A stretch of 64,000 nucleotides of DNA from Kordia aestuariivivens (lineage in GTDB: Bacteria; Bacteroidota; Bacteroidia; Flavobacteriales; Flavobacteriaceae): the NCBI RefSeq assembly GCF_014397005.1, contig NZ_JACGWS010000008.1, positions 186,001 through 250,000 on the forward strand, in the 5' to 3' direction. This document shows, piece after piece, positions 10,747 to 64,000 of the stretch. Made by a program: the position numbers and the translations under genes. Positions within the stretch are counted from its first letter, which is position 1. The number at the start of each line of letters is the position of its first letter. Below the pieces are notes generated by a model that searched no databases, was not told the DNA's origin, and was given only the letters and a program-made list of their open reading frames with translations.

Positions 10747-13700
10747 ATGAGAAGAAAATTACTATTCGCATTCTTAATTATTACAAACATCATTTGGGCA
10801 AATACAGATCTAGCAGCACCGGCAAATGATAATTTTGCAAACGCTATTCCGTTAACTTGTGGAAACAATTACACATCAAGCACCGTAGAAGCCACTTTAG
10901 ATGAAAACAATGCTCCAGATGCTACCACCCCACAAGCGGTTGATTTGGATGCGCCAAACATTTGGTATTCATATACAGGTTCAGGAACTCCAGAAACCAT
11001 TACGTTAGATTTATGTGCTTCCGGATATGATACTTCGTATTTAGTATATACGGGAACATCTGGCAACCTTACCTTGGTTGCGGCAAATGATTTCAATGAT
11101 ACTGAATGTGGTCCAGGATATCGTTCGTATGGTACCTTTGAATCGGATGGAAATACTACATACTATATTACGATTACTGGATACAACTCATCAGATGTTG
11201 GAGATGTCGACTTAACGGTTTCCTGTTTCCCATCGGATATAATACTGATTCCAGATGCTAATTTTGAACAAGCGCTGATTGATTTAAGTTTAGATACAGG
11301 AATTGTAAATGGATATATTTCTTCGACAGGAATAGATCAAATCAATGATTTGAATATTAGCAATAGTAATATTTCAGACTTATCAGGTATTGAAAACTTT
11401 ACAGGATTGCAATTTTTGAATGTCAGCAATAACAATCTTACAAGTTTACCGCTTACCGCAATTACAAATATAACGTCGCTTAATTGCAGTTTTAACGCTA
11501 TAACACTTATAAATTTGCGGAATCAAACGAATTTAACCTCTTTACAATGCAACAATAATGACGGATTGAGTGTGCTATTTGCAAATAATGGTAACAATAC
11601 TAATATCACACTTTTTGATGCTCGCAATACTGCAAATTTAGCATGTATTGAGGTTGATAATGCAGCGTACAGTGCAGCCAATTGGACAAACAGAGACGCC
11701 AATGTTCAGTTTTCAGAAATGTGCAACCAAACAACTTATACGTATGTGCCAGATGATAACTTTGAACAAGCGTTGATTGATTTAGGATATGATACTTCAC
11801 TGGATGATTATGTGCTAACAGCAAATATCAATACAGTTGGATCTTTAACTATTTCAAGTAGAAATATTACAGACCTAACAGGAATTGAAGGATTTACGGC
11901 TTTAACATTTTTAAGTTGTAGTAATAACATGTTGACAACTATAGATATTACTAATAATTCAATGTTAGGATATTTTTATTGTAAAAATAACCAACTTACA
12001 ACTATAGATGTTAGTCAAAATCCTGTATTAGAAACCTTTTGGTGTTATGAAAACTCATTAACTAGTATAGATGTAACTCAAAACTCTATTTTAAGATCAT
12101 TTCTATGTTTTGATAATGAACTTACAAGTATAGACGTGACTCAGAATTTAAGTTTAAGATCAATCGCTTTTGGTGAAAATCCAATAGAACACCTAGATTT
12201 ATCAAACAATTCTCAATTAACTTCAATAAACGCTTCAGGTGGTTCATTATCAAGTTTAGACTTAAGAAATGGAAATAACGTAAATATTAATTTCAACTTA
12301 GCAGGTTTCGATGTTACCAATAATCCAAATCTAAGCTGTGTAGATGTTGACGATGCTGCATACAGTACTGCAAATTGGACAAGTATTGACCCAGGACTGA
12401 CGTTTAGTGAAAATTGTACAGCACCAATTCCACCGAATGATGAGTGTGCTGATACCGTCAATATTCCAATAAGTGATGCTTCTTGTAACAATATAGTCGC
12501 AGGAACACTAGCAGGCGCAACAGACTCTGGCCTATTCCAATGTTTTGGAGGTACAGACTTTTCAGATGTTTGGTTTAGTTTCGTTGCCACAGAAACAACA
12601 CACGAGGTAAAGATATTAAATACTACGGGAGCGAATTCGAGAGTATTTCATACGGTCATTGATGCACAAACGTATAACTGTACAAATATTACAGATGCCG
12701 TTTATTGTACGGATGCTCTAGAACGACAAGCAACAGGATTAACGATAGGAAACACATATTACATTCAAGTATTTACGGATCTAGCTAACTCCACAGAAAC
12801 ATTTGATATTTGTATAACTTCAAGTGTAATTCCAGGATTAACTTTTGTGCCAGATAATAACTTTGAGCAAGCACTCATTGATTTAAGTTTAGATGATGTA
12901 TTGGATGATTATGTAGTAACAAGTAATATTGATGCTGTTAATGACTTAAACATTCGAAATCTTGGTATTTTTGACCTTACAGGAATTGAAGACTTTGCAG
13001 CGTTGGAAATCTTAAACTGCGGATTAAATTTCTTAGGAGAATTAGACCTAAGTAACAATACAAGCCTAAACTATCTAATTGCTGACAATAGCGCGTTAGT
13101 TGGGCTAAATGTTCAAAACGGAAACAATACCAACGTTACAACGTTCATCACGCTTGGTAATGTTGACTTATTCTGTATTGAAGTGGATGATGCCGCGTAT
13201 AGTACTGCCAATTGGACAACCGTTGAAACAGGAACAAGCTTTAGCACGGATTGTGGTTTTCTGGCGAATGATAATTGTGTAGATGCAATCAACATTCCTA
13301 TGAGCGATGCACTGTGTCTCAATGCAGTTACAGGAACTTTAGCTCAGTCAACAGATTCAAACGAATTTAAATGCTTTGGAAACACCGCTTCTTTCTCAGA
13401 TGTTTGGTATAGTTTCGTTGCCACAGAAACAACACACAATATCACATTCTTTAATTTAACAGGGCCGCCAAACACTGTATTTCACGCAGTCATTGATGCC
13501 GAAACATACAATTGCGGAAACATTATGGCTGCGATTGCCTGTTCAGATTCATCAAATAGCCAACTAACTGGACTTACAGTCGGAAACACCTATTACATAC
13601 AAGTATTTTCAAGCTTAGCAAATGTGAGCGCAACCTTTGATCTTTGTGTATCTACAAATACAATTCCAGGACAAACTTATGTGCCAGATGATAACTTTGA

Positions 13701-51964: not shown

Positions 51965-52615
51965 TTAATTAGACCCTCCAACTTTTTTCTTATTCTTATT
52001 AGGTTTAACCTTCTTCTTAGTTTTAAGCATCTTTTTTTGTAAGATCATTTTACGGTGCTGTAATATATTTCTATAAACACTGCCTTGCATATTAATACAT
52101 TCACCATCTCTTAATTGATTTTGTTTGCGATCTCTTGAGCGCATATACGTACCATCAGTATTTACAGTTGTACCATCGGCTAAACGTATCTGCTTTTCTA
52201 TTCTGTTTTGCGATTGATTACGGACTTTCATAACCTGTCCATCCATATATACATAATGCACTCTCTTTTGACTTCTTGTGCGTATTTGAGTTCGTGTGAG
52301 CCCTTGGTTCTCTTTGTGCATTTTAAAACGATAATGATATTCATTACGATAGCGAACACCATCTGAATCTATACATTCTCCATCGTTTAAACGCAATCGA
52401 TCTTGATCTCTAACTTGTATATAACCGTCAGGATTTAAAATAGTTCCATCAGAAAGGGTAACCTTATCTTTCAATCTAATTTGATCACGGTCTCTTATTT
52501 GTAATACATCACCGTCAACGAGCATAAGGCGATCTCTATCACGATCTTGATCTTGAGCAAATGTGGATGTCATTACAACTAAGGACATAACCACTAATAC
52601 ATATAATTTTTTCAT
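51965..52615 (-). CDS. Secreted Asp/Arg-rich repeat protein (DUF6799-like, 216 aa)
   Basis: After a signal peptide (MKKLYVLVVMSLVVMTSTFAQ) the protein is built from four or so short repeats of an (I/L)-DGTxxxxDG-x-x(R/K)xRDxDRLRL-DGE type. Examples are VLQIRDRDQIRLKDKVTLSDG, YIQVRDQDRLRLNDGECIDSDG and MRSRDRKQNQLRDGECINMQG. This matches DUF6799-style 'DGxVxxxxDG' repeats. The C-terminus is strongly basic. The function is unknown; it may bind metal or acidic polymers. It is the first gene after the Crp/Fnr-type promoter A and is separated from the efflux operon by a hairpin. Confidence 0.65.
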   Translation of the reverse strand: MKKLYVLVVMSLVVMTSTFAQDQDRDRDRLMLVDGDVLQIRDRDQIRLKDKVTLSDGTILNPDGYIQVRDQDRLRLNDGECIDSDGVRYRNEYHYRFKMHKENQGLTRTQIRTRSQKRVHYVYMDGQVMKVRNQSQNRIEKQIRLADGTTVNTDGTYMRSRDRKQNQLRDGECINMQGSVYRNILQHRKMILQKKMLKTKKKVKPNKNKKKVGGSN

Positions 52616-52644
52616 TTATAAGAATTTAATATTGATTTATACTT

Positions 52645-52652
52645 CAAAATTA
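52645..52652 (-). promoter_or_regulatory. -7 box of promoter A
   Basis: The minus strand reads TAATTTTG, an exact TAnnTTTG match. Its first base (52652) is exactly 29.5 bp from the centre of the palindrome at 52673-52690. The start codon at 52615 is 29 nt further on. Confidence 0.75.
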
Positions 52653-52672
52653 TGTAACACTTACACCATTTG

Positions 52673-52690
52673 AAATGACCTGAATCAGTT
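52673..52690 (-). promoter_or_regulatory. Crp/Fnr-type activator site A (AAATGA-CCTGAA-TCAGTT)
   Basis: A TGA-N6-TCA palindrome with one mismatch in the outer arm. The centre (52681.5) would lie at about -41.5 if the TSS is 12 nt after the first T of the -7 box. It shares its consensus with sites B, C and D. Confidence 0.75.
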
Positions 52691-52815
52691 GTGAGAATTA
52701 TATTAGAACTCGAAGGAAAAAGCTATCCCTAAATCATAGGTCTAATGATGCGATTCATTTTATAACTATTTCATAGTCAGTTTTTTTGGGTATTAAATCA
52801 AAAACATCTAATAGT

Positions 52816-53190
52816 ATAAAAACAATAAGTTTACTTTTTTTGGGACTCTTTTTAAGCTTGGCTTTTTGGTCAGTTTAAAAGTGGAGAAGATATCGTGATT
52901 TCAGACCAGCAAAAAGATGATATCTATCTAGCGGAAGAAACGATCAAAATAAATGCAGCAGATGGAACAATTATTATCAATGATAGTATTTATGATGATC
53001 TTTCTGCGGTTAGTGTTGATTTGTCCATCAATAAGTGTATTGCTGATGATGTCAGGAGATAAAAATTACTATTGATACGGAAATTGGCGATGACCTAGTG
53101 ATTTTCGGTGGAGAGGTTTTTATCACAAAAAAACTAAAGTGAATGGTAATTTGATTTGCTCCGCAGAAGCTATTGAGATGAATGGCAGTT
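52816..53190 (+). pseudogene. Degraded bactofilin-like/polymer-forming secreted protein
   Basis: Conceptual translation gives a hydrophobic signal-like stretch (IKTISLLFLGLFLSLAFWS). A frameshift leads to FKSGEDIVISDQQKDDIYLA and NAADGTIIINDSIYDD. A stop near 53060 is followed by KITIDTEIGDDLVIFGGEVF and, in another frame, KVNGNLICSAEAIEMNGSF. The GDDLVIFGGEVFI...VNGNLICSAE pattern is typical of bactofilin-like beta-helix proteins. The start codon position holds ATA instead of ATG, and at least three frameshifts or stops are present. Confidence 0.6.
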
Positions 53191-53356
53191 TTTTATTATT
53201 ATTTTATAGTTTAAAATTAATTTTTTCATCATTAAATGTTATAGTCAATAAATCGTTTCTGAAGTATACAACAATATTCCCTTTTTTATCTACAGAAATC
53301 CATTTAACCATCTTTTATAATAACAGTTAAGTCTTTAACCTTATAATAATCCTTTA

Positions 53357-53374
53357 TAGTGACGTAGGTCATTC
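53357..53374 (+). promoter_or_regulatory. Crp/Fnr-type activator site B (TAGTGA-CGTAGG-TCATTC)
   Basis: A TGA-N6-TCA site with divergent outer bases; read on the minus strand it is GAATGA-CCTACG-TCACTA. Its centre (53365.5) is exactly 29.5 bp before the first base of the -7 box at 53395. Confidence 0.7.
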
Positions 53375-53394
53375 TTTACGACGAAAGACTGCCT

Positions 53395-53402
53395 TAATTT
53401 AG
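53395..53402 (+). promoter_or_regulatory. -7 box of promoter B (hsp20)
   Basis: TAATTTAG, a near match to TAnnTTTG, positioned 29.5 bp from the site B centre. The hsp20 ATG at 53441 is about 34 nt after the predicted TSS. Confidence 0.65.
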
Positions 53403-53440
53403 CCTTATAAAATATTGTTAAATTTAAAACCTTAAAAATC

Positions 53441-53908
53441 ATGTCACTAATAAAATTTAGAAAAAAAAGACCCTTCGGAAACCTCATTGCTTCAGATTTT
53501 TTTGATTCTGATCCTTTCTTTGGAAATCGCCTATGGAATACAAGTTTCTTCAACGGAGATTTCTGGAATGGAAAATCGCAAGAACCAGCATTAAACGTTA
53601 AAGAAACAGATGAAGCCTATGAAGTAGAATTGGCTGCTCCTGGGTTTTCGAAGAAAGATTTTGAAGTCACCATAGATGATGGCTATCTTAATATTTCAGC
53701 AGAAAAATCAGAATCCAAAGAGGAAGATGATGATAATTACACAAGAAAAGAGTTTAGTTATAATTCTTTTGAAAAACGGTTACAGCTTCCCAATTCTGTA
53801 AAGGATGAAGATGTCAAAGCAACATATAAAGACGGCATCCTTAGTTTTGATCTTATCAAAAAAGAAGAAGCTAATGTAAGAAAGCCAAAAAGAATTGAAA
53901 TTGCCTAA
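53441..53908 (+). CDS. Small heat-shock protein Hsp20 (alpha-crystallin family)
   Basis: ATP-independent holdase chaperone. The 155-residue protein has a Phe/Asp/Asn-rich N-terminal arm (DFFDSDPFFGNRLWNTSFFNGDFW). The alpha-crystallin domain (about 48-140) starts PALNVKETDEAYEVELAAPGFSKKDFEVTIDDGYLNISAEK and includes SFEKRLQLPNSVKDEDVKATYKDGILSFDLIKKE. A C-terminal extension carries the (I/V)x(I/V) anchor as KRIEIA. It follows promoter B and precedes the P-type ATPase, with a hairpin terminator in between. Confidence 0.95.
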   Translation: MSLIKFRKKRPFGNLIASDFFDSDPFFGNRLWNTSFFNGDFWNGKSQEPALNVKETDEAYEVELAAPGFSKKDFEVTIDDGYLNISAEKSESKEEDDDNYTRKEFSYNSFEKRLQLPNSVKDEDVKATYKDGILSFDLIKKEEANVRKPKRIEIA

Positions 53909-53941
53909 TGCATTATTTTCAGAAAATCATCTTCAATAATG

Positions 53942-53989
53942 ACCCTTTTACCAAAACTCTACGTACAAAAGATTTGGCAAAAGGGTTTT
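53942..53989 (+). terminator. Terminator after hsp20
   Basis: ACCCTTTTACCAAA (53942-53955) pairs with TTTGGCAAAAGGGT (53973-53986) with one mismatch and is followed by TTT. Readthrough into the ATPase gene 30 nt on is possible. Confidence 0.75.
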
Positions 53990-54017
53990 AAAATAATATA
54001 TCTTCAAACTAACTCAA

Positions 54018-56678
54018 ATGCTAAGAATGATTTTAGAGCCTTTTGCAATACATGCAAAAACTGTGGCACAGAAGCTAAGCAGCTCCATTCAATTTGGTTT
54101 AACCAATGAGGAAACGCAACATCGTATTAAAGAATTTGGGACCAATGACATCCCAGAAAAAAAGAAAAAAAGCAGATGGAAAATCCTTATTGATCAATTT
54201 ATAGATCCCATTATTCTCATTCTTGCATTAGCAACATTTTTCACATTTCTTTTTAGCCCCGATTTGCTTGAAACAATTGCCATATTAATGGTTATCCTAA
54301 TTACGGTTGGTATTGGTTTTATCATGGAATTACAAGGTATTCGCTCTCTTGAAGCGCTTCGCAAAATGGGATATACTGCATCCACTGTTTTGCGTGATGG
54401 AAAAATCCAAATGATACCATCAACATTATTAGTGCCTGGCGATATTATTTTTATTGAAACAGGTGATATTATTTCAGCTGATGCTCGTTTAATTTCTGTT
54501 GAAAATTTATCCATCAAAGAAGCTTTATTAACAGGTGAAAGTACAGCCGTAAATAAAGATTTAAGTAGACTAGCCAAAAATACACCACTCACAGAAAGAA
54601 GCAACATGGTATTTAAGGGTACATCTGTCATTCAGGGTTCGGCAAAAGCTATTGTTACCCATACAGGATTCCATACGCAATTGGGTAAAATTCAGAAAAT
54701 GAGTGCCGTCATTGGAGAACAGCGAACTCCATTAGAAAAAAAACTGAACGAATTGAGTAAATGGCTTATTTGGCTCACATTGATATTCGCCATACTTATC
54801 TTTTTTACGGGATACTTAAGAGGTATGGATATCATAGAAATCCTTAAAACAACCGTAGCACTTGCAGTTGCAGCGATACCAGAAGGACTTCCCATAGTAG
54901 CTACGATTGCTTTAGCTAGAGGAATGCTTAAATTATCTAAACAAAAGGTTATTATTAAAAAAATGGAGGCGGTAGAAACATTGGGAGCCACAAATATTAT
55001 TTGCACTGATAAAACAGGAACACTCACTGAGGATAGAATGCAAGTACATACAATGGCTTTTGAGGATGAACTATTGAGTAAAATTCAAAACAAAGAATAT
55101 CATTTTTTTGATCATTTACTTAAAAAAAAATCTTTCAACACAATGATGAAGGCTAGTATTTTGTGTAATAATGTAGCGCTAGGTGCTATGAATAAGAGAG
55201 GAGATAGTATTGAATTAGCACTTATTGAATTCGCTGAAAAATTAAAATTAGACCTAAAAAAGATTAAAAAAAATAATCCAGAGGTATTAGAAATACCATT
55301 TGATACTAACAGTAAACTGATGGTTACATTGAATCAAAATGTAGTCATTGGTGCTACTATATATGTTAAAGGAGCATTTGAGAGTCTAGTTAACTACTGC
55401 GACACAATATTGAGGAAAGATAAGATTCAAGAATTTACAAATAAAAAAGAATGGTTTACCAAAGTGAATAAATTAGCATCTCAAGGATTAAGAATATTAG
55501 GGTTTGCTTATAGAGATGTTGCAGCGCCACCAATAAAAGAGGACTTATTATCAAATTTAACTTTTATAGGAGTCATTGCATTCTTAGATCCAGCAAGAGA
55601 TGATGTAAAATCTACTATAAAAATATATAAAGACGCAGGAATTAAGGTCGTAATGTTAACAGGGGATCATCCTGGAACTGCTAAAAAGATTGCTGAAGAA
55701 GTCGGATTACTAGGAAAAGACTCTACTACTGATGGAGTAATCCACGGTAAAGATCTAGAACTTACAGAAGAGCTAGACACTACTAATAAAGAGAAGCTAT
55801 TGAATGCCTCGGTTTTTGCAAGAGTAACTCCTGAACAAAAGCTAAAAGTAATAGCGCTTTATCAAAAGAACAATAATATCGTAGGTATGTTTGGTGATGG
55901 TGTAAATGACATTCCTGCATTGCGAAAAGCAGATATTGGTATTGCTATGGGAATACGCGGAACCCAAGCTGCAAGAGAGTCGGCAGATATCATTCTTAAA
56001 AATGACCGATTTACTGCTATGGAGTTAGCTATAAAACAAGGTCGTGCTGTTTTTGATCATATCAGGCAATTTGTGGTGTATCTTTTGTCATGTAATTTAG
56101 CCGAAGTAGTATCTGTTGGATTAGCGGCTTTGCTTAATTTACCTGCACCATTATTGCCTTTACAGATATTATTTCTAAACCTTATTACAGATATTTTCCC
56201 TGCACTTGCCCTAGGCATGGGGAAAGGAGAAGTTGATATCATGAAACGCCCACCTAGGAAAGCAAATGAACCCATTATGACACCAAAGCTTTGGTCATCT
56301 ACTATTATTTATGGGTTGTGTATTACCGCTGCAGTAGTTGGGATTACCGCATATTCTCACTTCGCATTAAAAGCGTCCCCAAGTGAAATAAATAACATGG
56401 CTTTCTTTACGTTATTACTCGCGCAATTATTCAATGTATTTAATATGTCTAAAACCGAAGTTCCCTTTTTTAGTAATGAAGTGATTAAAAATCCTTGGGT
56501 ATGGGGAGCATTTATAGTATCAATAATCATAACAGTAGGTGCCTATTCTATTACTCCTGTTGCTGATGCGCTTCATTTAACTAGTTTATCAATAAAACAA
56601 TTTGGGTGGGTAATTGTATTTACATTTGGTTCATTGGTTTTGTCACAACTTATGAAGCGATTGGGGTTTACATTTTAG
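54018..56678 (+). CDS. PII-type cation-transporting ATPase
   Basis: The 886-residue P-type ATPase has cation-transporter N-terminal and E1-E2 domains, and the actuator motif TGEST (about 175-179). The TM4 motif PEGLPIV (about 290-296) is typical of Ca/Mn-type pumps. The phosphorylated Asp331 is in CTDKTGTLTED, and the hinge GDGVNDIPALRKADIGIAMG is present. The C-terminal six-helix cation-ATPase domain (about 680-880) is intact. PII-type pumps transport Ca2+, Mn2+ or monovalent ions; the ion here is unknown. It lies 110 nt after hsp20 and is probably co-transcribed. It ends at the terminator 56724-56760. Confidence 0.92.
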   Translation: MLRMILEPFAIHAKTVAQKLSSSIQFGLTNEETQHRIKEFGTNDIPEKKKKSRWKILIDQFIDPIILILALATFFTFLFSPDLLETIAILMVILITVGIGFIMELQGIRSLEALRKMGYTASTVLRDGKIQMIPSTLLVPGDIIFIETGDIISADARLISVENLSIKEALLTGESTAVNKDLSRLAKNTPLTERSNMVFKGTSVIQGSAKAIVTHTGFHTQLGKIQKMSAVIGEQRTPLEKKLNELSKWLIWLTLIFAILIFFTGYLRGMDIIEILKTTVALAVAAIPEGLPIVATIALARGMLKLSKQKVIIKKMEAVETLGATNIICTDKTGTLTEDRMQVHTMAFEDELLSKIQNKEYHFFDHLLKKKSFNTMMKASILCNNVALGAMNKRGDSIELALIEFAEKLKLDLKKIKKNNPEVLEIPFDTNSKLMVTLNQNVVIGATIYVKGAFESLVNYCDTILRKDKIQEFTNKKEWFTKVNKLASQGLRILGFAYRDVAAPPIKEDLLSNLTFIGVIAFLDPARDDVKSTIKIYKDAGIKVVMLTGDHPGTAKKIAEEVGLLGKDSTTDGVIHGKDLELTEELDTTNKEKLLNASVFARVTPEQKLKVIALYQKNNNIVGMFGDGVNDIPALRKADIGIAMGIRGTQAARESADIILKNDRFTAMELAIKQGRAVFDHIRQFVVYLLSCNLAEVVSVGLAALLNLPAPLLPLQILFLNLITDIFPALALGMGKGEVDIMKRPPRKANEPIMTPKLWSSTIIYGLCITAAVVGITAYSHFALKASPSEINNMAFFTLLLAQLFNVFNMSKTEVPFFSNEVIKNPWVWGAFIVSIIITVGAYSITPVADALHLTSLSIKQFGWVIVFTFGSLVLSQLMKRLGFTF

Positions 56679-56723
56679 ATATGGCTTATAGTGTATCTGA
56701 AATTCCACAATAAAGCATAAAAA

Positions 56724-56760
56724 AAGAACATTGAATTTATTCCCGTTCAATGCTCTTTTA
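56724..56760. terminator. Bidirectional terminator between the ATPase and PepSY-like genes
   Basis: AAAAGAACATTGAA pairs with TTCAATGCTCTTTT with one mismatch around ATTTATTCCCG. It serves the converging genes on both strands. Confidence 0.8.
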
Positions 56761-56830
56761 TATAATCACTTTTGTGTAGTAATTGGTAGTATCGTAAATT
56801 ATTATAAGTTCATAAAAATGTATTATAACT

Positions 56831-57331
56831 TTATAAAAAATTACCATATTGATCCGTTTTAACTCTAATGGTTTTCTCTCCATTAGTCAATTTCAACTTG
56901 TAGATTTTTTTAGATTCCCATTTTGGCTCAGAATAACTCACTTTATAGATGTCTTTATCTACTATCCAATTAGGAAACCGTTCTAATAATGCTTGACTTA
57001 CGGCAAACGGTAGTTTTACATTTTTATAGCGTTCAATAGTTCTAAGCAACTTGCCATCCTTGTCATAAGTAGCTACAGCATACCCTTTTGGAATATAAAA
57101 AGAAACAGTATAACTATCATATTCATCGTTGTAATACTCTTCTTTTGTAACATCAAACTTTCCAAGTTTTATTTGTAAATCTTTAACGTTTTGATCGATA
57201 TCATCATCCACCACTTCATAAATATATTTGTATTTGATAGGACGAATTACAACAGTGTCGAGTTCAATTACTTGAGCAAATAAAGGTGTAGTTAGACCAC
57301 AAACCAATAAAAAAAGAAATAATTTTTTCAT
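56831..57331 (-). CDS. Secreted PepSY-like protein (166 aa)
   Basis: A signal peptide (MKKLFLFLLVCGLTTPLFAQ) is followed by a mature domain whose C-terminal half resembles a PepSY-like/BLIP fold. It includes LPFAVSQALLERFPNWIVDKDIYKVSYSEPKWESKKIYKLKLTNGEKTIRVKTDQYGNFL. The N-terminal part contains VIELDTVVIRPIKYKYIYEVVDDDID. No catalytic residues are evident; it may be a periplasmic binding or inhibitor protein. It starts at the predicted divergent promoter C and is transcribed away from the esterase fusion gene. Confidence 0.7.
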   Translation of the reverse strand: MKKLFLFLLVCGLTTPLFAQVIELDTVVIRPIKYKYIYEVVDDDIDQNVKDLQIKLGKFDVTKEEYYNDEYDSYTVSFYIPKGYAVATYDKDGKLLRTIERYKNVKLPFAVSQALLERFPNWIVDKDIYKVSYSEPKWESKKIYKLKLTNGEKTIRVKTDQYGNFL

Positions 57332-57358
57332 AATAATAAAGTTTAGTTTTTTATTAAA

Positions 57359-57366
57359 TAAAGTTA
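57359..57366 (-). promoter_or_regulatory. -7 box of promoter C (leftward)
   Basis: The minus strand reads TAACTTTA. Its first base (57366) is exactly 29.5 bp from the centre of the palindrome 57387-57404, the same as for the rightward box. Confidence 0.7.
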
Positions 57367-57386
57367 GCTAGTACTTAGAGCATACA

Positions 57387-57404
57387 AAATGACCTGCATC
57401 ATTT
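57387..57404. promoter_or_regulatory. Crp/Fnr-type activator site C (AAATGA-CCTGCA-TCATTT)
   Basis: Perfect 6-bp outer arms around a 6-bp centre, the best match to the consensus. -7 boxes at the same 29.5-bp distance lie on both sides, so one site probably drives two divergent transcripts. Confidence 0.85.
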
Positions 57405-57424
57405 CATAATTGATTAATCAATGA

Positions 57425-57432
57425 TACTTTTA
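57425..57432 (+). promoter_or_regulatory. -7 box of promoter C (rightward)
   Basis: TACTTTTA, a near match to TAnnTTTG. Its first base is exactly 29.5 bp from the site C centre. The esterase-fusion ATG at 57459 is about 22 nt after the predicted TSS. Confidence 0.7.
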
Positions 57433-57458
57433 TGTAGCTATTTTAAATACATATAAAA

Positions 57459-59402
57459 ATGAAAGGCATTAATATTGAAGAACAATTAAAGGATAAAGGC
57501 ATTAGCAATACATTACTTTTAGAGGCTTTTCAAGATATTCCTGAAGCTTTTTTTTTATCGGAAAACTTACACCCTTATTTTTATGAGGATGTACGGATTG
57601 AAAAATCTATCAAAAAAACAGAGCCTAGAGTTATTGTGGTTGCCAGAATGTTGGAGCAACTAGAAGTAAAAGAGGAAGAGAAAATTCTAATTACTGGAGT
57701 AGATTCTGTTTATATATTGGCAGTACTTTCTAAAATATATAAAGAGGTATATGCTGTTGAAACTACTAAAACCTACTCAAATTGGGCTTTAGAAGTCTTA
57801 AAAAATATAGATATTAGCAACGTACACATAAAAACTGGAAAACTGGAAAACGGTTGGAAAGCAAAAGCACCATTTAATGCTATTTTAAGCGCTTCAGAAT
57901 TCAAAGAAATTCCAGAGACCATAAAAGAACAATTAAAAATCGGAGCTAAATTATTGGCGCCCGTTGGTCCAGATTGGGCACACGTTATGTTGGAAACTAT
58001 AGAACGTATTTCTGAAACTGAATATATTACAAAAGCATTGCGAGATAATTATTTTATTCCAAGACCAAAGCTAATTCCTAAAATAGGAAAAGAAATATAT
58101 CCTGAAAATGAAATTATAGACGAAATAGGTATTAGTTCTATTCCTTTTAAAACAATTAAAAAATTTCCAACAGATGGGTTGCTAGAACGAATTGGTGATG
58201 CTAAAGTTGTACTGTTGGGTGAGGCATCGCACGGCACTTCAGAGTTTTATACCATGAGGCAAGAAATAACAAAAGCACTTATAGAAAAAAAAGGGTTTAA
58301 CCTTGTTTGTGCAGAAGCGGATTGGTCTGATGCGGAGCAAATTAATAATTATGTGAGAAACCAATACCAATTGCAAGATTGGATGCCTTTTGCACGTTTC
58401 CCAGAATGGATGTGGAAAAATAAAGAAGTACTTGATTTTGTGGAATGGCTTAAAAAAAAGAACACCAATCATAATACTACTATTGGGTTTTATGGACTCG
58501 ATTTATACGGATTAGAAAACTCTATTGATTTAGTCATTAATTATCTGCAAGATATTGACGTAGATTTAGCGATACTTGCAAAAGTCCGCTATTCTTGTAT
58601 GATGCCATATATGTCTAATCCTTCTTTATATGGAAAATTAGTAAATACTAAAAAATTGGAGAGTTGTGAGAAAGACGTGCTAAAAATGTTATTTGATTTG
58701 TTGAAAAACAAAAACAAACTCAATCATTCCCAAGCTTATTTTTATGCTTACCAAAATGCGACGGTTGTGGTGGATGCAGAACGCTATTACAAGGCGATGT
58801 ATTATGGCAGTGCAGAATCTTGGAACTTACGCGATTTTCACATGTTTTATACTTTAAAATCTTTACTATCTTATTACGGTAAAGACTCAAAAGCTGTTGT
58901 TTGGGCGCATAATTCTCATATAGGGAATGCTTTGGCAACCGAAATGTATGCGAGAGGCGAAATAAATATTGGTCATTTGTGTAAGGAGCATTTTGGGTCT
59001 AAATCTTATCATATTGGTTTTGGAACACACACAGGAACAGTTGCTGCCACTAAAAATTGGGGAGAAACCATGAAAGTTATGAATGTGAATGATTCTGTTG
59101 CAGAAAGCTATGAACAGCTTTGTCATAAAACAAACGTTACTAATTTTACATTACCCTTAAGAGAAGAACATTCAGAAAAAAAATTGAGAGAATTTTTAAA
59201 TACACCAAGATTAGAACGCGCTATTGGTGTTGTTTATAGACCAGAAACCGAATTGAGGAATCATTATTTTAAAACCGTATTGCCATCTCAATTTGATGAG
59301 TATATATGGTTTAATAAAACAAAAGCCATTACGCCACTTGAAATAAAAATAGAAAAAACTAAACTTCCGAATGTGCATCCGTTTGGGTTAATAGACAAAT
59401 AA
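57459..59402 (+). CDS. PCMT-like / erythromycin esterase-like fusion protein (647 aa)
   Basis: The N-terminal part (about 1-215) resembles protein-L-isoaspartate methyltransferase (LHPYFYEDVRIEKSIKKTEPRVIVVARMLEQL, then EEKILITGVDSVYILAVLSKIYKEVYAVE). The SAM motif I is degenerate: TGVDSVY stands where G-x-G-S/T-G-Y is expected. From about 235 to 635 it is an erythromycin esterase-type domain, with LLGEASHGTSEFYTMRQEIT (catalytic His) and AEADWSDAEQINNYV. WAHNSHIGNALATEMYARGE follows later. The family is not limited to antibiotic hydrolysis, and stress-related roles are known. It is alone at promoter C and convergent with the PRT-hydrolase-SOD operon. Confidence 0.85.
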   Translation: MKGINIEEQLKDKGISNTLLLEAFQDIPEAFFLSENLHPYFYEDVRIEKSIKKTEPRVIVVARMLEQLEVKEEEKILITGVDSVYILAVLSKIYKEVYAVETTKTYSNWALEVLKNIDISNVHIKTGKLENGWKAKAPFNAILSASEFKEIPETIKEQLKIGAKLLAPVGPDWAHVMLETIERISETEYITKALRDNYFIPRPKLIPKIGKEIYPENEIIDEIGISSIPFKTIKKFPTDGLLERIGDAKVVLLGEASHGTSEFYTMRQEITKALIEKKGFNLVCAEADWSDAEQINNYVRNQYQLQDWMPFARFPEWMWKNKEVLDFVEWLKKKNTNHNTTIGFYGLDLYGLENSIDLVINYLQDIDVDLAILAKVRYSCMMPYMSNPSLYGKLVNTKKLESCEKDVLKMLFDLLKNKNKLNHSQAYFYAYQNATVVVDAERYYKAMYYGSAESWNLRDFHMFYTLKSLLSYYGKDSKAVVWAHNSHIGNALATEMYARGEINIGHLCKEHFGSKSYHIGFGTHTGTVAATKNWGETMKVMNVNDSVAESYEQLCHKTNVTNFTLPLREEHSEKKLREFLNTPRLERAIGVVYRPETELRNHYFKTVLPSQFDEYIWFNKTKAITPLEIKIEKTKLPNVHPFGLIDK

Positions 59403-59408
59403 TGAACA

Positions 59409-60041
59409 TTAATTTATTTTAACCTTATTTAAAAAGGTTTTAACTTGGTTATCATCAACTTGGTCAAAGTTTTTGTAAAACTGACCTACAGCTCTAAAAT
59501 TTACAGGTGTTGACAGACAGATAACTTCGTCAACAAAAGGCGTGTTTTTTAGTTTCTGTAAGGCACTTTGAGATGACACAGGAATGGCAATCACGATTCT
59601 TTTTGGTTGTTCATCGTGCAACATTTCTATCGTAGATAGAATAGTATTACCAGTAGCAATGCCATCATCTACAATAATTAAGATTTTATCTTTTAGATCT
59701 TGAGGTTCTTTATTTCCATAATAATCCTGATACCGGTTGGTAAGCAACGTTCTAATTTTTTTAGTTTCTTCTTCAATATAAATTTTAGAAATTTCTTTAG
59801 CTGCATCACTTAAAACTTGACTTTTTAAGGTAACTGCACCAATGGCATATTCCTTATGGAATGGATGCCCTATTTTTTTAGAAAGTACTACCTCTAAAGG
59901 TAAATGTAATTGTTTCGCTATGATATACCCCAAAGGCACACCACCTCTTGGGATAGCCAAAATTACAGCGTTTTTTCCCTTATAAGTTTCTAGTTTGTCT
60001 GCTAACAAATTGGCAGCTTCTATTCTATCTTTAAATACCAT
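59409..60041 (-). CDS. Phosphoribosyltransferase-domain protein
   Basis: The 210-residue protein has a type I PRT fold. It shows VILAIPRGGVPLGYIIAKQL near the N-terminus, then KKIGHPFHKEYAIGAVT. The PRPP loop is ILIIVDDGIATGNTILSTI (about 122-140). FRAVGQFYKNFDQVDD is a characteristic C-terminal motif of stress-associated PRT proteins (often fused to dienelactone hydrolase). The nucleobase substrate is unknown. It starts 4 nt after the alpha/beta hydrolase stop, so it is the last gene of the minus-strand operon. Confidence 0.88.
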   Translation of the reverse strand: MVFKDRIEAANLLADKLETYKGKNAVILAIPRGGVPLGYIIAKQLHLPLEVVLSKKIGHPFHKEYAIGAVTLKSQVLSDAAKEISKIYIEEETKKIRTLLTNRYQDYYGNKEPQDLKDKILIIVDDGIATGNTILSTIEMLHDEQPKRIVIAIPVSSQSALQKLKNTPFVDEVICLSTPVNFRAVGQFYKNFDQVDDNQVKTFLNKVKIN

Positions 60042-60045
60042 CTCT

Positions 60046-60681
60046 TTAGCTTTTTAAATATTTAGTAAACCAATTACAGGTTGATTTTGCTACAGCTTCT
60101 AACTTTCCTGGTTCGGAAAATAAATGTGTGGCACCTTCAATAATCTCTATTTCTTTGATGCCAGAAAGTTTAGCGTAGGCATTTTTGTTTAAATCAATAA
60201 CAACGCCGTCATTACCACCAACAATTAAAAGAGTTGGGCTTTTTATTTTATCTAAAATAGGTGCAGCTAAATCTGGTCTGCCACCTCTAGAAACGATGGC
60301 TTTTATGCTTGTTCCTAAAAATGGTACTGCCTTTAATGCAGAAGCGGCACCAGTACTTGCACCAAAAAAACCAATAGGTGCATTTTGCATGTCTTTTCGT
60401 TTGCTTATCCATTGGGTAACTTTTACCAATCGTTCAGCAAGCAAATCGATGTTAAACCTGTTTTCATATATAGTGTCTTCAGCTTCCGTCAATAAATCAA
60501 ACAATAATGAAGAGAAACCTTCTTTTAAGAGTAAATCTGCAACATAATTGTTTCTGCTACTCATTCTACTGCTACCACTTCCATGTGAAAAAACAACCAA
60601 GCCTTTTTGGTTTTCTGCTATACGCAATCGCCCCTTTAAGCTTATATTTTTTATTGGAATATTTACTTCTTTGTAGTTCAT
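60046..60681 (-). CDS. Alpha/beta hydrolase (dienelactone-hydrolase-like)
   Basis: The 211-residue alpha/beta hydrolase has an oxyanion region VVFSHGSGSSRMSSRNNYVADLLLKEG. The nucleophile Ser is in FGASTGAASAL (about 108-118), Asp in LLIVGGNDGVV (about 163-173) and His in EGATHLFSEP (about 189-198). This is the Ser-Asp-His triad of the family. In many bacteria this protein is fused to, or beside, the PRT protein, as here. Its gene starts 4 nt inside the end of the SOD gene and is probably translationally coupled. Confidence 0.87.
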   Translation of the reverse strand: MNYKEVNIPIKNISLKGRLRIAENQKGLVVFSHGSGSSRMSSRNNYVADLLLKEGFSSLLFDLLTEAEDTIYENRFNIDLLAERLVKVTQWISKRKDMQNAPIGFFGASTGAASALKAVPFLGTSIKAIVSRGGRPDLAAPILDKIKSPTLLIVGGNDGVVIDLNKNAYAKLSGIKEIEIIEGATHLFSEPGKLEAVAKSTCNWFTKYLKS

Positions 60682-61403
60682 GACATTCTGGATTCAACTT
60701 TATTCCAATTAATGATTTTTAGAATTTTTTGGAGATATTCTGTTCGTCTATTTTGATATTTGAGATAATAGGCGTGTTCCCAAACGTCAATACCTAAAAT
60801 TGGCGTCCCGCTCATTTCTGTTATTTTCATTAACGAATTATCCTGATTAGGAGTAGAAAAAATACGTAGCTTTTTGTCATTAGTCTGTATAACCCATGCC
60901 CAGCCAGATCCAAAACGTTTTGCTCCTACATCTGATAATTCATTCATAAAAGCTTCCTCTGATCCAAAGTCTTCAATGATTTTTGCTTTAAAGGTATTGC
61001 TCATCGTACCACCAGGAGTTAAGATATCCCAATATAGATTATGATTATAATAACCGCCACCATTATTGCGTATAGCATTGGGGAGATTATCCATACTTAA
61101 AATTTCTTCTATCGTTTTCCCAGAAATATTGTCTTTTTTCAAAGCTGCGTTAAGCTTATCTGCATAACCTTGATGGTGTTTCGTATAATGTATTTCCATA
61201 GTTAAAGGATCAATAACATCTGGAAAAGCGTTATATCCATAAGGTAGTTTAGGTAATTTGAAGATGTTTGAAGTTGATTCCATAATTTTTTCTTTTTTAG
61301 GTTCTGATTCACAAGCTAAAAACAGCAATGAAGGTGCGATATACGCGCCTGCTGATAGCGTTATTGCTTGTTTTAAAAATTTCCGTTTGTTCATCGTTTC
61401 CAT
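60678..61403 (-). CDS. Fe/Mn superoxide dismutase, predicted lipoprotein
   Basis: The 241-residue protein carries a signal sequence with lipobox Cys31 (LLFLAC; Cys28 if the second Met is the start) before the SOD domain. Metal ligands are visible: His in EIHYTKHHQGY, His in YYNHNLYWDIL, and Asp/His in DVWEHAYYLKYQN. SODs of this family are usually cytoplasmic, so a membrane-anchored periplasmic or surface form is notable. Metal preference (Fe or Mn) cannot be decided from the sequence here. It overlaps the hydrolase gene by 4 nt and probably follows the HMA gene in one transcript. Confidence 0.9.
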   Translation of the reverse strand: METMNKRKFLKQAITLSAGAYIAPSLLFLACESEPKKEKIMESTSNIFKLPKLPYGYNAFPDVIDPLTMEIHYTKHHQGYADKLNAALKKDNISGKTIEEILSMDNLPNAIRNNGGGYYNHNLYWDILTPGGTMSNTFKAKIIEDFGSEEAFMNELSDVGAKRFGSGWAWVIQTNDKKLRIFSTPNQDNSLMKITEMSGTPILGIDVWEHAYYLKYQNRRTEYLQKILKIINWNKVESRMS

Positions 61404-61446
61404 TTTTTATTGTGTAAAAAAGTGTTATTTATTCTTTATTTGTATG

Positions 61447-61671
61447 CTAATGATTTAAAATATTATCATGTCCAAGTATGGGATAACCCAAAGCTTCCAA
61501 GGCATGTTTGGCATGTTCAAAATCACGTTTTGCAAAAAAGTCAAAGCTTACAGTTTCCTTTTCTAAGTTAACATCTACATTGCTAATATTACGTAATTCT
61601 GTAAGTCTGTTTGTTATGATTTTTACGCAAGTATCACAAACGAGGTTTTGTATGTGTACTGTTTTTCTCAT
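61447..61671 (-). CDS. HMA-domain heavy-metal-binding protein (74 aa)
   Basis: A small ferredoxin-like HMA domain with the metal motif C12-D-T-C15 in QNLVCDTCVKIITNRLTEL. VDVNLEKETVSFDFFAKRDFEHAKHALEALGYPIL follows, with the family's characteristic GYP end. It resembles copper or other soft-metal chaperones such as CopZ/Atx1. It lies 43 nt upstream of the SOD gene and is the first gene after promoter D. Confidence 0.9.
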   Translation of the reverse strand: MRKTVHIQNLVCDTCVKIITNRLTELRNISNVDVNLEKETVSFDFFAKRDFEHAKHALEALGYPILGHDNILNH

Positions 61672-61737
61672 AGTTGTATTATTGAAAGTCTCTGCTTTTT
61701 ACTATTTAACGTATTACTGCTTGAGGCTAATAACCTT

Positions 61738-61745
61738 TAAAATTA
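61738..61745 (-). promoter_or_regulatory. -7 box of promoter D (HMA-SOD-hydrolase-PRT)
   Basis: The minus strand reads TAATTTTA. Its first base (61745) is exactly 29.5 bp from the site D centre. The HMA start at 61671 is about 60 nt downstream of the predicted TSS. Confidence 0.72.
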
Positions 61746-61765
61746 TGGTTTAAGAAATGATCTTG

Positions 61766-61783
61766 AAATGACTAGGATCATTT
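61766..61783 (-). promoter_or_regulatory. Crp/Fnr-type activator site D (AAATGA-CTAGGA-TCATTT)
   Basis: The core lies within a palindrome whose 9-bp arms are TTGAAATGA (61763-61771) and TCATTTCAA (61778-61786). The extended arms make this the most symmetric of the four sites. A further GAAATGA half-site begins at 61754. Confidence 0.85.
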
Positions 61784-61786
61784 CAA

Positions 61787-61984
61787 TAAAAAGTAGGGCT
61801 AATCCATTTTAAATTTTTACAAATCAAGATGATTTCATATGACAATGAAGTCGTTTGATATTTTTAATTAAAGTAATAATTGTAATAAAATTTATCTATA
61901 AACTTATCTAGGTATTAGACTTATTTCAATATTAAATTATACATAACATTTTTGAGATTAATAGGAGCTCGTCACATTTATTAT
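61787..61984. other. Noncoding region between promoter D and the glycosyltransferase
   Basis: No gene or clear repeat was seen. It is AT-rich and contains the region upstream of promoter D and the 3' side of the glycosyltransferase gene. Confidence 0.4.
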
Positions 61985-64000
61985 TCATTTGCCATTATTT
62001 GTTAATCTTAAAAATGCAGCTTCTTTTAGTTTAACGAGTTGAAACAATTTTCCTGATGAAACAGCCTTATGTTTTTCCATTATTATACGAGCAATTAAAT
62101 AACAAATGGTAGATTCTGCACCTTGGTTTATGTTTACATTCTCTTTTTCTAACCCATCATAACAACCACCAGTTGCAGGATTATACATAATCTGATTCAG
62201 ATGATTTTTACCTAAAAACCAATTGAATGCTATTTGCTGCATCGTTTTATACATTGGATCTTTAAAAGTTTTATAAAAAACATCCAATGCTTGTATAGTA
62301 TAAGCAACATCAATAGGTTGTTCTCCATACGGATGCGGTGTAGTATTTTTATAGTACCAACTTTTGTTTGATATTACTTTAAAATGATTATTCACAAACA
62401 TTTTTGACAATAAAAAATCAAAAGATTCTATAGCTATTCTTTTGTAAGGTTCCTTACCCGTAACTTTATAGGTATATAACATTGCCTCTGGGAGTATGCT
62501 GTTTGCATAGGTCATATAATTTTCAAACCATTTCCAGTGAGTTTTCGCATTAATATCGTAACTGGTAATTAGATTTTTTGAAAGGTTTTCAATGAGATGT
62601 GCAACTGATTTATCTTTCTCAACAGAATAGTAAAGAAATAAACCTTTTATAGCAAAACCAATTGCTCTGGGCGATAAGATATGTTTTAACCATTGAGAAC
62701 ATTTTAGAAGACAAATCGTTGCTCTTTGCACGATAGTATTTGGAAGGTATTTCTTCATTGAAATTACTGTTCCCAAAGCCCAAACAGCGCGAGTATTAGA
62801 ATCTTCAAGATTTACATAATCATTTTTTATATGCACATTATTTTGTTCATCAACATAATTTATGAACGTTCCTATTTTTTTTTGACAACGTTCAATAAAA
62901 GTCAAGTATGTATTAATGTATGACAAATCGCTGCTTTTTTGAAACGAACTATAGTGTAAGCACATAGCTATTAATGCTCTGGCATTATCATCTAAAGTAT
63001 AGCCAGAAGAACTATCTGGATCAGAAACTTTACAAAATTGTAATATTCCTAAATCCGTTGTCATATTCTTTATGTGATCGAGTTTAATGGAAGGATATTT
63101 ATAATCAAATTCAAAATTTTCTGGTATGCATTTTTTATAAATGTTTACTTGTTTTAAAGCCACATTTTTCCAAGATGAGGTTCTCGTTTTTTCAAAAGCA
63201 GCTAGCGCCATCGATTCACACAATTCACTGCTGGACAATATCTTTATAGTGGCATCAGCAAGTTGTTTAGAATCTCCAATATTCACAAGAATTCCTGCAT
63301 TAGAAGTAAGCATTTCTTTTGTATGAGGAATTGCTGTTGCTACAATTGGGCAAGCACAGCTCATAGCGTAAGAAAACGTACCACTCACAGCCTGATTTGC
63401 GTCTTTTGATGTGAATAAATAAATATCTGTAGCTTTCAAATAGGATAATAGCTCTTCAATTTCTATATAATCATTGATAAAGCGTACATGATTTTCGATT
63501 TGTAAGTCTCTAACCAATGTTTCTAAGTATGTTCGATAATCATCCTTATTATTAACAATTGTATTAGGATGCGTTTTTCCAATAACCAAATACAATACAT
63601 CAGGTTGATGTTTAATGATTTCTGGCAACGCTTTAAGAGCTGTTTCTATACTCTTACCTGAACTTAAAAGCCCAAAAGTAGATAGAACGGTTCGCTGCTC
63701 TAAATTGAATCTTTCCTTAATTTTGTTTGGTGCTTCATAAGTAACCATGTGCGTACCATGTGGCACATATTCTATGTTATTTTTATCGATATTATATTGT
63801 TCTATTAAAATCCTTTTAGACGCTTCTGTCATTACGATTACAGCCTTGCAATATGAGATTAAAATTGAAACAAAAGCCATCAATTTTTTATCAGGATTTG
63901 GTATGACACTATGAAAAGTAACTACAATAGGTTTTTCTATCGTAGTTAAAAAATCTAGTAAGTAATTTCCAAATTCTCCTCCAAATAAACCGAATTCATG
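61985..64000 (-). CDS. GT4-type glycosyltransferase with C-terminal helical domain (truncated by window edge)
   Basis: The frame stays open to base 64000, so 671 residues are visible and the N-terminus is outside the window. The visible start HEFGLFGGEFGNYLLDFLTT belongs to the N-terminal Rossmann domain. The GT4 nucleotide-sugar domain includes LSTFGLLSSGKSIETAL and FTSKDANQAVSGTFSYAMSCACPIVAT (the usual E-x7-E region is modified). From about residue 325 a helical region with DPDSSSGYTLDDNARALIAM and a six-hairpin-like repeat suggests a second domain. The sugar donor and acceptor are unknown. Confidence 0.8.
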   Translation of the reverse strand, partial: HEFGLFGGEFGNYLLDFLTTIEKPIVVTFHSVIPNPDKKLMAFVSILISYCKAVIVMTEASKRILIEQYNIDKNNIEYVPHGTHMVTYEAPNKIKERFNLEQRTVLSTFGLLSSGKSIETALKALPEIIKHQPDVLYLVIGKTHPNTIVNNKDDYRTYLETLVRDLQIENHVRFINDYIEIEELLSYLKATDIYLFTSKDANQAVSGTFSYAMSCACPIVATAIPHTKEMLTSNAGILVNIGDSKQLADATIKILSSSELCESMALAAFEKTRTSSWKNVALKQVNIYKKCIPENFEFDYKYPSIKLDHIKNMTTDLGILQFCKVSDPDSSSGYTLDDNARALIAMCLHYSSFQKSSDLSYINTYLTFIERCQKKIGTFINYVDEQNNVHIKNDYVNLEDSNTRAVWALGTVISMKKYLPNTIVQRATICLLKCSQWLKHILSPRAIGFAIKGLFLYYSVEKDKSVAHLIENLSKNLITSYDINAKTHWKWFENYMTYANSILPEAMLYTYKVTGKEPYKRIAIESFDFLLSKMFVNNHFKVISNKSWYYKNTTPHPYGEQPIDVAYTIQALDVFYKTFKDPMYKTMQQIAFNWFLGKNHLNQIMYNPATGGCYDGLEKENVNINQGAESTICYLIARIIMEKHKAVSSGKLFQLVKLKEAAFLRLTNNGK

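Follow-up and report, generated by a model that had tools for sequence, protein, structure and literature searches.

In a 64,000-nucleotide stretch of Kordia aestuariivivens DNA (the window; positions 186001-250000 of a contig we call C45, in a genome of 5.46 Mb and 46 contigs), we analyzed four predicted operator dyads that lie at a fixed distance from -7 promoter boxes in front of stress genes. Most likely, a stress regulator whose gene lies outside the window acts through these dyads. Judged from sequence, a class II activator of the Crp/Fnr superfamily, most likely a receiver-Crp fusion encoded with a histidine kinase on contig C17, very probably switches on an island of stress and persistence genes together with a structured RNA. 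This reading draws on the sites, their spacing and conservation, the gene neighborhood and the covariation of the RNA, all of which we observed.

A first-pass annotation of the window had reported four palindromes of the form TGA-N6-TCA and, in five promoter directions, a TAnnTTT-type -7 box whose first base lies exactly 29.5 bp from the center of the palindrome. We rechecked the coordinates and letters of the four dyads and five boxes and found them correct (Table 1). The exact spacing was also confirmed and is unique to these 4 of the 22 TGA-N6-TCA dyads in the window; none of the remaining 18 has even TAnnTT at 29.5 bp. The nearest other dyad (52743-52760) was considered as a fifth site and rejected, having TTTTTTTG and no box at that distance. 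Four of the five boxes match TAnnTTT, the one at 53395 is TAnnTTA, and only the box at 52652 has the full TAnnTTTG. At the local intergenic frequency of TAnnTTW, five or more such boxes in 8 directions would arise by chance with a probability of 1.3e-8; at the window frequency, the figure over all 44 directions is 1.1e-5.

We built a matrix, which contains no box positions, from 13 different sites of the K. aestuariivivens genome chosen for having a box at 29.5 bp (L001:1352 and two sites of L006 were excluded). A spacing count in the same genome is circular, since every matrix site was selected with its box; counting in other organisms avoids this and is the strongest check of the spacing. 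The matrix was scanned against 30 loci (L092-L121) around relatives of the candidate regulator (lowest identity 55%; 51-75% among the matches listed), from genera including Formosa, Winogradskyella, Aquimarina, Polaribacter, Bizionia, Gelidibacter, Maribacter, Lacinutrix, Olleya, Arenibacter, Flavobacterium and Oceanihabitans; close relatives are among them (L110/L111 and L115/L116). At a score of at least 13 we found 146 sites, with 103 TAnnTTW boxes at 29.5 bp versus a mean of 3.4 over the other 47 distances. The distances of 28.5 bp and 30.5 bp had 1 box each, and the highest other count was 17, at 13.5 bp; this small excess at 13.5 bp in the same loci ranged from 17 to 20 depending on the threshold. 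Fifty loci with more distant regulators gave 22 sites and 8 boxes with the same matrix. The fixed spacing first seen in the window recurs at related loci.

At orthologous promoters (50 loci; score of at least 9, TAnnTT at 29.5 bp, no more than 450 nt upstream), the arrangement was kept before 14 of 14 hsp20 copies (13 genomes, the copies in L082 and L107 being from one genome), 24 of 27 members of the L002:9643 family, 14 of 18 BON genes and 3 of 3 PepSY-like genes, counts that are not independent events because some of the genomes are close relatives. The single relative of the esterase fusion (in genome G071, 88%) also has the site. Three sets of neighboring genes in these loci lacked the arrangement (exoIII-like, 0/9; small116, 0/15; L001_5473, 0/15). 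Further genes behind foreign sites encode a ferritin-like (Dps-like) protein and, in Polaribacter locus L095, a Usp-family protein. That dyads and boxes coincide by accident in AT-rich intergenic DNA has next to no probability. In its favor, -7 boxes are short, AT-rich sequences and the first-pass annotation had allowed the TAnnTTA variant; against it, the local probability is about 1e-8, boxes at the one distance far exceed the mean elsewhere and all 14 hsp20 copies found have the arrangement. We rejected chance on the foreign-locus spacing and the local probability; the first-pass annotation had also judged it unlikely.

Class II activators of the Crp/Fnr type bind with their center at -41.5. 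A study of transcription start sites (TSSs) in Flavobacterium psychrophilum located the sigma-A box of that organism, TAnnTTTG, between -12 and -5 (PMC9723704); its main text mentions Crp and Fnr zero times. Since the -7 box starts at -12 in that organism (PMC9723704), the window dyads, 29.5 bp from a box of this type, are predicted to be centered at -41.5, with the F. psychrophilum TSSs as reference. Two features of the 103 aligned foreign promoters were not selected for: G occupies -5 in 74% of them, and the predicted +1 is A in 59%. These promoters have no TTG at -33 (G at -32 in 8%, at -33 in 15%), which matches the expectation for activator-dependent promoters. They also have an A-rich tract at -62 to -58, upstream of the dyads (L092-L121; A in 48-63%), that is perhaps an UP-like element. 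It is very unlikely that the dyads are instead repressor operators, at which a dimer lying over -50 to -33 would block RNA polymerase. The dyad does overlap the -33 region, and position alone gives no sign; however, promoters without TTG at -33 look weak unaided, -41.5 is the activator position, and a repressor would presumably need no such exact distance. We conclude that the class II stress regulon of Crp/Fnr type proposed in the first-pass annotation is, as a prediction, supported by the foreign spacing, the orthologous sites, the position of the -7 box and the two-island pattern described below.

The same dyad-box geometry continues past the window at 2146, 5388, 9547 and 11211 of L001 (the next 12.7 kb) and recurs on contig C17 (L002 at 4268, 7075, 9129 and 10189; L004 at 354 and 1689) and at the end of contig C12 (L006 at 9861 and 11278). 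Behind these sites are genes for a BON-domain protein, FtsH, a second Hsp20 (L004:1157-1624) and a second PepSY-like protein (L004:429-929), both of the latter with their own site on C17. Beyond what the first-pass annotation could see, the ideal dyad is TGACCTAGGTCA and the regulon extends past the window. A strict pattern, ANTGACCTRNRTCA, has 14 matches (12 sites) in the genome, all in C45:238674-261227 and C17:7076-15703, and its reversed control has 2. Because this pattern was built from the genome's own sites, matches at those sites are no test; the absence of matches elsewhere is one, and equally good matches at random genome positions were not found with it (0 outside the two islands). 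The C17 island also holds the candidate regulator gene. With the matrix at a score of at least 13, there are 4 sites in window positions 52601-62000, none in positions 1-52600 or in L003 (20 kb), 1 in L007 (20 kb) and 1 at L002:109. A looser search with AAATGAYNNNNRTCATTT and at most one mismatch gave 42 sites in the genome versus 13 for the control, 34 of them outside C45 and C17. Six of these 34 have TAnnTT at 29.5 bp (2 at the C12 end and 4 with an AT-rich core, in L011, L022, L026 and L035) and 28 do not; the four AT-rich-core sites perhaps belong to a regulon of the C8-type regulator or of Fnr.

The islands on C45 (window and L001) and C17 (L002 and L004) hold similar sets of hsp20, PepSY-like, hydrolase-phosphoribosyltransferase, lipoprotein and RNA genes, which points to duplication or double gain. 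Beside the C17 island, L004:7750-19844 contains very large open reading frames (ORFs) that read like nonribosomal peptide synthetases, together with a gene for a tryptophan-halogenase-family protein (PF04820).

We searched the genome for HTH_Crp_2 genes (E up to 0.001) and found five, on contigs C17, C10, C8, C9 and C5. A Crp-type regulator inside the window was accordingly rejected at this threshold, consistent with the first-pass statement that the window has no regulator gene. The C17 gene (C17:10214-11284), inside the island, encodes a receiver-cNMP-HTH_Crp fusion (PF00072, 3.7e-32; PF00027, 7e-21; PF13545, 3.9e-16; PF00325, 6.8e-7). Directly upstream is a gene for a PAS histidine kinase (L002:11295-13907), and such a kinase lies no more than 300 bp upstream of the regulator in 29 of the 29 loci with a long enough flank (L118, of the 30, is cut off). 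The protein thus belongs to the Crp/Fnr superfamily by its cNMP-binding-like and HTH_Crp domains and to the two-component response regulators by its receiver domain and adjoining kinase, between which phosphotransfer is predicted. We conclude that the likely regulator is not a free-standing Crp/Fnr protein but this fusion of receiver and Crp parts, encoded outside the window's contig next to a histidine kinase of its own.

The recognition helix reads ET[ATSV]IR in the C17-type rows printed and ET[LF]IR in the C8-type rows in which the motif was found. Its E and R, which align with RETVGR of solved CRP and which we take to read the GA of TGA, are kept. At the positions that are presumably the cAMP contacts of CRP (its E and RS), alignment with solved CRPs showed GEL replaced by GQL and RS by YT, so the C17 protein lacks the signature of a cAMP-type Crp. 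With the contact letters changed and the helix kept, the protein is likely to respond to phosphorylation and not to cAMP. The protein has no CxxC and hence no Fnr iron-sulfur signature; a CxxC Fnr-like protein is encoded on C10. Fnr was rejected as the regulator, since no Fnr gene lies near these sites and the dyad core seems to track the receiver-Crp clade. The 25 of 114 NCBIfam families listed for the regulator were all below cutoff, and a literature search of open-licence papers gave no paper on such a receiver-Crp regulator, regulon or RNA.

Close relatives of the regulator (56-64%) occur in 7 of 148 related genomes; ten genomes of the same genus lack a close regulator, their matches to the C17 protein reaching only 40-43%. 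The 7 regulator-bearing relatives have a mean of 6.1 motif matches versus 0.98 in the 141 without (Mann-Whitney p 2.8e-5, the K. aestuariivivens genome excluded; p 6.3e-5 against the 82 genomes of the same family). With the K. aestuariivivens genome included, the mean is 7.1 and p is 5.9e-6. In G071, 10 of 12 matches lie in about 41 kb (C1:519925-561341) around the regulator at C1:551583. In a tree of 110 rows, from which L118 and some others are absent, the C17-type clade (38 rows, support 100/99) places the C17 protein beside rows from Polaribacter, Formosa, Winogradskyella, Bizionia and Aquimarina, and the C8-type clade (36 rows, 100/99) places the C8 paralogue with rows of the same genus. 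This placement and the patchy spread suggest that the island was gained horizontally.

The core of the dyad seems to follow the regulator clade. Thirty C17-type loci have 76 TAnnTTTG boxes at 29.5 bp among 363 dyads, with core CCTAGG. Of the 154 dyads in 14 C8-type loci, 11 stand 29.5 bp from a TAnnTTTG box, in 12 directions altogether, and their core is AT-rich. The comparison took in all of the 50 more distant loci except L167, 49 in total; L169 was counted as C8-like, and its genome, G021, also has a C17-type regulator. Dyads with an AT-rich core and TAnnTTTG at 29.5 bp were seen at L041:1456-1473 and in L151, L159-L161, L164, L165 and L169, several of them just downstream of C8-type receiver-Crp genes. 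The AT-rich-core dyads of C8-type loci are likely a sister regulon.

Several observations weigh against control by the C17-type protein, or against parts of the target list. Genome G042 has 9 motif matches, a site before hsp20 and an RNA-model match, and only a C8-type receiver-Crp was found there; G035, G091 and G102 have 5 motif matches each and no close regulator; conversely, G021 has the regulator but 1 motif match, and G064 has 3. Of the 41 receiver-Crp copies none is directly preceded by a site, and of the 19 kinase copies only 2 are. The arrangement was present at 0 of 1 HMA genes (the relative in G071), 0 of 4 pta genes, 1 of 4 DnaJ genes and 7 of 21 copies of a sigma-factor-like gene, and the matrix matches in L007 and at L002:109 are isolated and outside the islands. 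The same class II regulon could be run by the C8 receiver-Crp paralogue or the C10 CxxC Fnr-like protein; the five HTH_Crp_2 genes in the genome, the dyads at the same spacing in C8-type loci, and G042 are all points in favor. We nevertheless consider this unlikely: the ten same-genus genomes, of which the five in the tree are C8-type, have only 0-2 motif matches each, the C8-linked core is AT-rich and not CCTAGG, and the strict-pattern matches cluster at the C17 gene and on C45.

No ORF of 70 codons follows two of the K. aestuariivivens sites, L001:2146 and L002:9129. Each is followed by a stretch of about 400 nt (Table 1), and the two copies are 89% alike over this length. One copy folds far better than its shuffles (z -6.5). 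The 3' hairpin of the RNA is followed by T-rich sequence and resembles a terminator. Relatives lie in L094, L096, L099, L101, L103, L104, L075 and L079; in Aquimarina muelleri, Polaribacter filamentus, Gelidibacter and Maribacter, among others, they start at such a site near the regulator, and Gelidibacter (L099) has three matches of the RNA model in a row. In an alignment of ten sequences, 23 of 44 predicted pairs changed on both sides; the covariation score was 0.488 versus 0.271 (standard deviation, 0.019) for shuffles and 0.11-0.18 for slid versions, a comparison that favors the structure because this very alignment was used to predict it. Only one measure, the number of further pair types, was weak, with 11 of 500 shuffles reaching it. 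Rfam 15 gave no match up to E 0.5 (L001, L002) or up to E 0.1 (L094, L096, L099). A search of 72 loci returned mostly the training sequences of the model, R1, as strong matches. A model of the central hairpins, at E 0.001, matched 6 of 149 genomes: K. aestuariivivens and G071 (both used in training), G066, G042 and, marginally, G012 and G121. At this threshold five regulator-bearing genomes (G011, G021, G047, G064 and G073) have no match; with matches in only 3 of 8 such genomes, the RNA is part of some islands and not all. On these comparisons, a covarying RNA of about 400 nt seems to be switched on as part of the regulon in K. aestuariivivens and several related bacteria. In Flavobacterium loci L113, L115, L116 and L117, a stretch of about 500 nt near 11329-11364 (minus strand) stands behind a site and is 70-96% conserved between the loci; no ORF (ATG start, at least 50 amino acids) was found in it, and it is perhaps a second RNA or a gene with an unusual start.

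The genes behind the window sites are listed in Table 1. If each TSS lies 12 nt past the first base of its box, the predicted leaders are 25 nt for the DUF6799 gene, 34 nt for hsp20, 23 nt for the PepSY-like gene, 22 nt for the esterase fusion and 62 nt for the HMA gene.

Table 1. Predicted control elements, the genes behind them and the two RNA copies; positions are those of the window unless a locus is named
Feature	Position	Strand	Sequence or basis	Remarks
Operator dyad 1 (predicted)	52673-52690		AAATGACCTGAATCAGTT	matrix score 21.4
-7 box for dyad 1	52645..52652	-	TAATTTTG	first base 52652; 29.5 bp from center; predicted TSS ~52640
Operator dyad 2 (predicted)	53357-53374		TAGTGACGTAGGTCATTC	matrix score 19.8
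-7 box for dyad 2	53395..53402	+	TAATTTAG	first base 53395; 29.5 bp; predicted TSS ~53407
Operator dyad 3 (predicted)	57387-57404		AAATGACCTGCATCATTT	matrix score 22.3; faces both directions
-7 box for dyad 3, minus side	57359..57366	-	TAACTTTA	first base 57366; 29.5 bp; predicted TSS ~57354
-7 box for dyad 3, plus side	57425..57432	+	TACTTTTA	first base 57425; 29.5 bp; predicted TSS ~57437
Operator dyad 4 (predicted)	61766-61783		AAATGACTAGGATCATTT	matrix score 18.4
-7 box for dyad 4	61738..61745	-	TAATTTTA	first base 61745; 29.5 bp; predicted TSS ~61733
DUF6799 protein	51965..52615	-	ORF; PF20606	first gene behind site 1
Hsp20 small heat-shock protein	53441..53908	+	ORF; PF00011	behind site 2
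P-type cation ATPase	54018..56678	+	ORF; PF00122 and others	downstream of hsp20
PepSY-like secreted protein	56831..57331	-	ORF; name from first-pass annotation	behind site 3; no Pfam match
PCMT-erythromycin-esterase fusion protein	57459..59402	+	PF01135, PF05139	behind site 3
Phosphoribosyltransferase	59409..60041	-	ORF; PF00156	similar ORF L002:7872-8510
Alpha/beta hydrolase	60046..60681	-	ORF	similar ORF L002:7220-7885
Fe/Mn superoxide dismutase	60678..61403	-	PF00081, PF02777	
HMA-domain protein	61447..61671	-	PF00403	first gene behind site 4
Structured RNA, ~400 nt, copy 1	L001:1711-2125	-		behind site L001:2146
Structured RNA, ~400 nt, copy 2	L002:9167-9581	+		behind site L002:9129

We propose that the PAS kinase would sense stress and phosphorylate the receiver-Crp protein; at a guess, the signal is low oxygen or a similar stress linked to respiration or stasis. 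The activator dimer would bind TGACCTAGGTCA-like DNA centered at -41.5 and contact RNA polymerase at the sigma-A -7 box, whose first base would be at -12. The targets on C45 and C17 would be the genes for Hsp20, the P-type ATPase, the PCMT-esterase fusion, the HMA-superoxide dismutase-hydrolase-phosphoribosyltransferase set, BON, FtsH and PepSY-like proteins, and the RNA. A broader reading, which we hold tentatively and rate a little short of even, is that this is a self-contained persistence module moving horizontally among Flavobacteriaceae, made up of the receiver-Crp protein (a one-protein equivalent of FixJ-FixK) with its kinase, operators and stress genes. Some of the genomes would add a new class of structured RNA, about 400 nt long, as the riboregulatory arm of the response, and two sister clades of the regulator would share the geometry and differ in the core.

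For a stress island in a family with little-known transcription control, these results name a candidate regulator and operator, the promoter geometry and a list of likely targets, and they indicate an undescribed structured RNA. They suggest that two-component control of gene sets of the persistence type (Hsp20, BON, P-type ATPase, esterase fusion) arose in unrelated ways in different phyla. The C17-type and C8-type clades are a natural pair for studying how the DNA specificity of a Crp-type helix changes.

The proposed system resembles class II Crp/Fnr promoters in the predicted -41.5 center and in the helix E and R aligned to CRP; unlike CRP, the protein has a receiver domain and altered letters at the presumed cAMP contacts. 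The lxa (low-oxygen-activated) locus of Burkholderia cenocepacia encodes universal stress proteins along with one heat-shock and one BON-domain protein, and its candidate regulator, BCAM0049, is of the CRP family, with the homologue in B. dolosa, FixK, under FixLJ (PMC6127331). The K. aestuariivivens regulon is similar in its stress gene content (Hsp and BON, with a Usp-family protein in Polaribacter L095) and in a CRP-family candidate regulator (PMC6127331). Unlike lxa, it has receiver and Crp output in one protein, a TAnnTTTG-like box, a CCTAGG core and a likely RNA target; lxa is activated by low oxygen, and an oxygen response of the K. aestuariivivens regulon is our guess. The content also resembles that of the mycobacterial DosR/DevR dormancy regulon, whose members, under two-component control, include Hsp20, a cation ATPase and a protein of the erythromycin-esterase type. 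DosR itself belongs to the NarL/LuxR type of regulators; the protein here has a Crp fold, and its DNA site is unrelated. Finally, the arrangement is like the FixLJ-FixK oxygen cascade of rhizobia, in which a sensor kinase and a receiver are followed by a Crp-type output on dyads. The difference is that a FixJ-like receiver and a FixK-like output appear fused here, which would place a two-step cascade in one protein.

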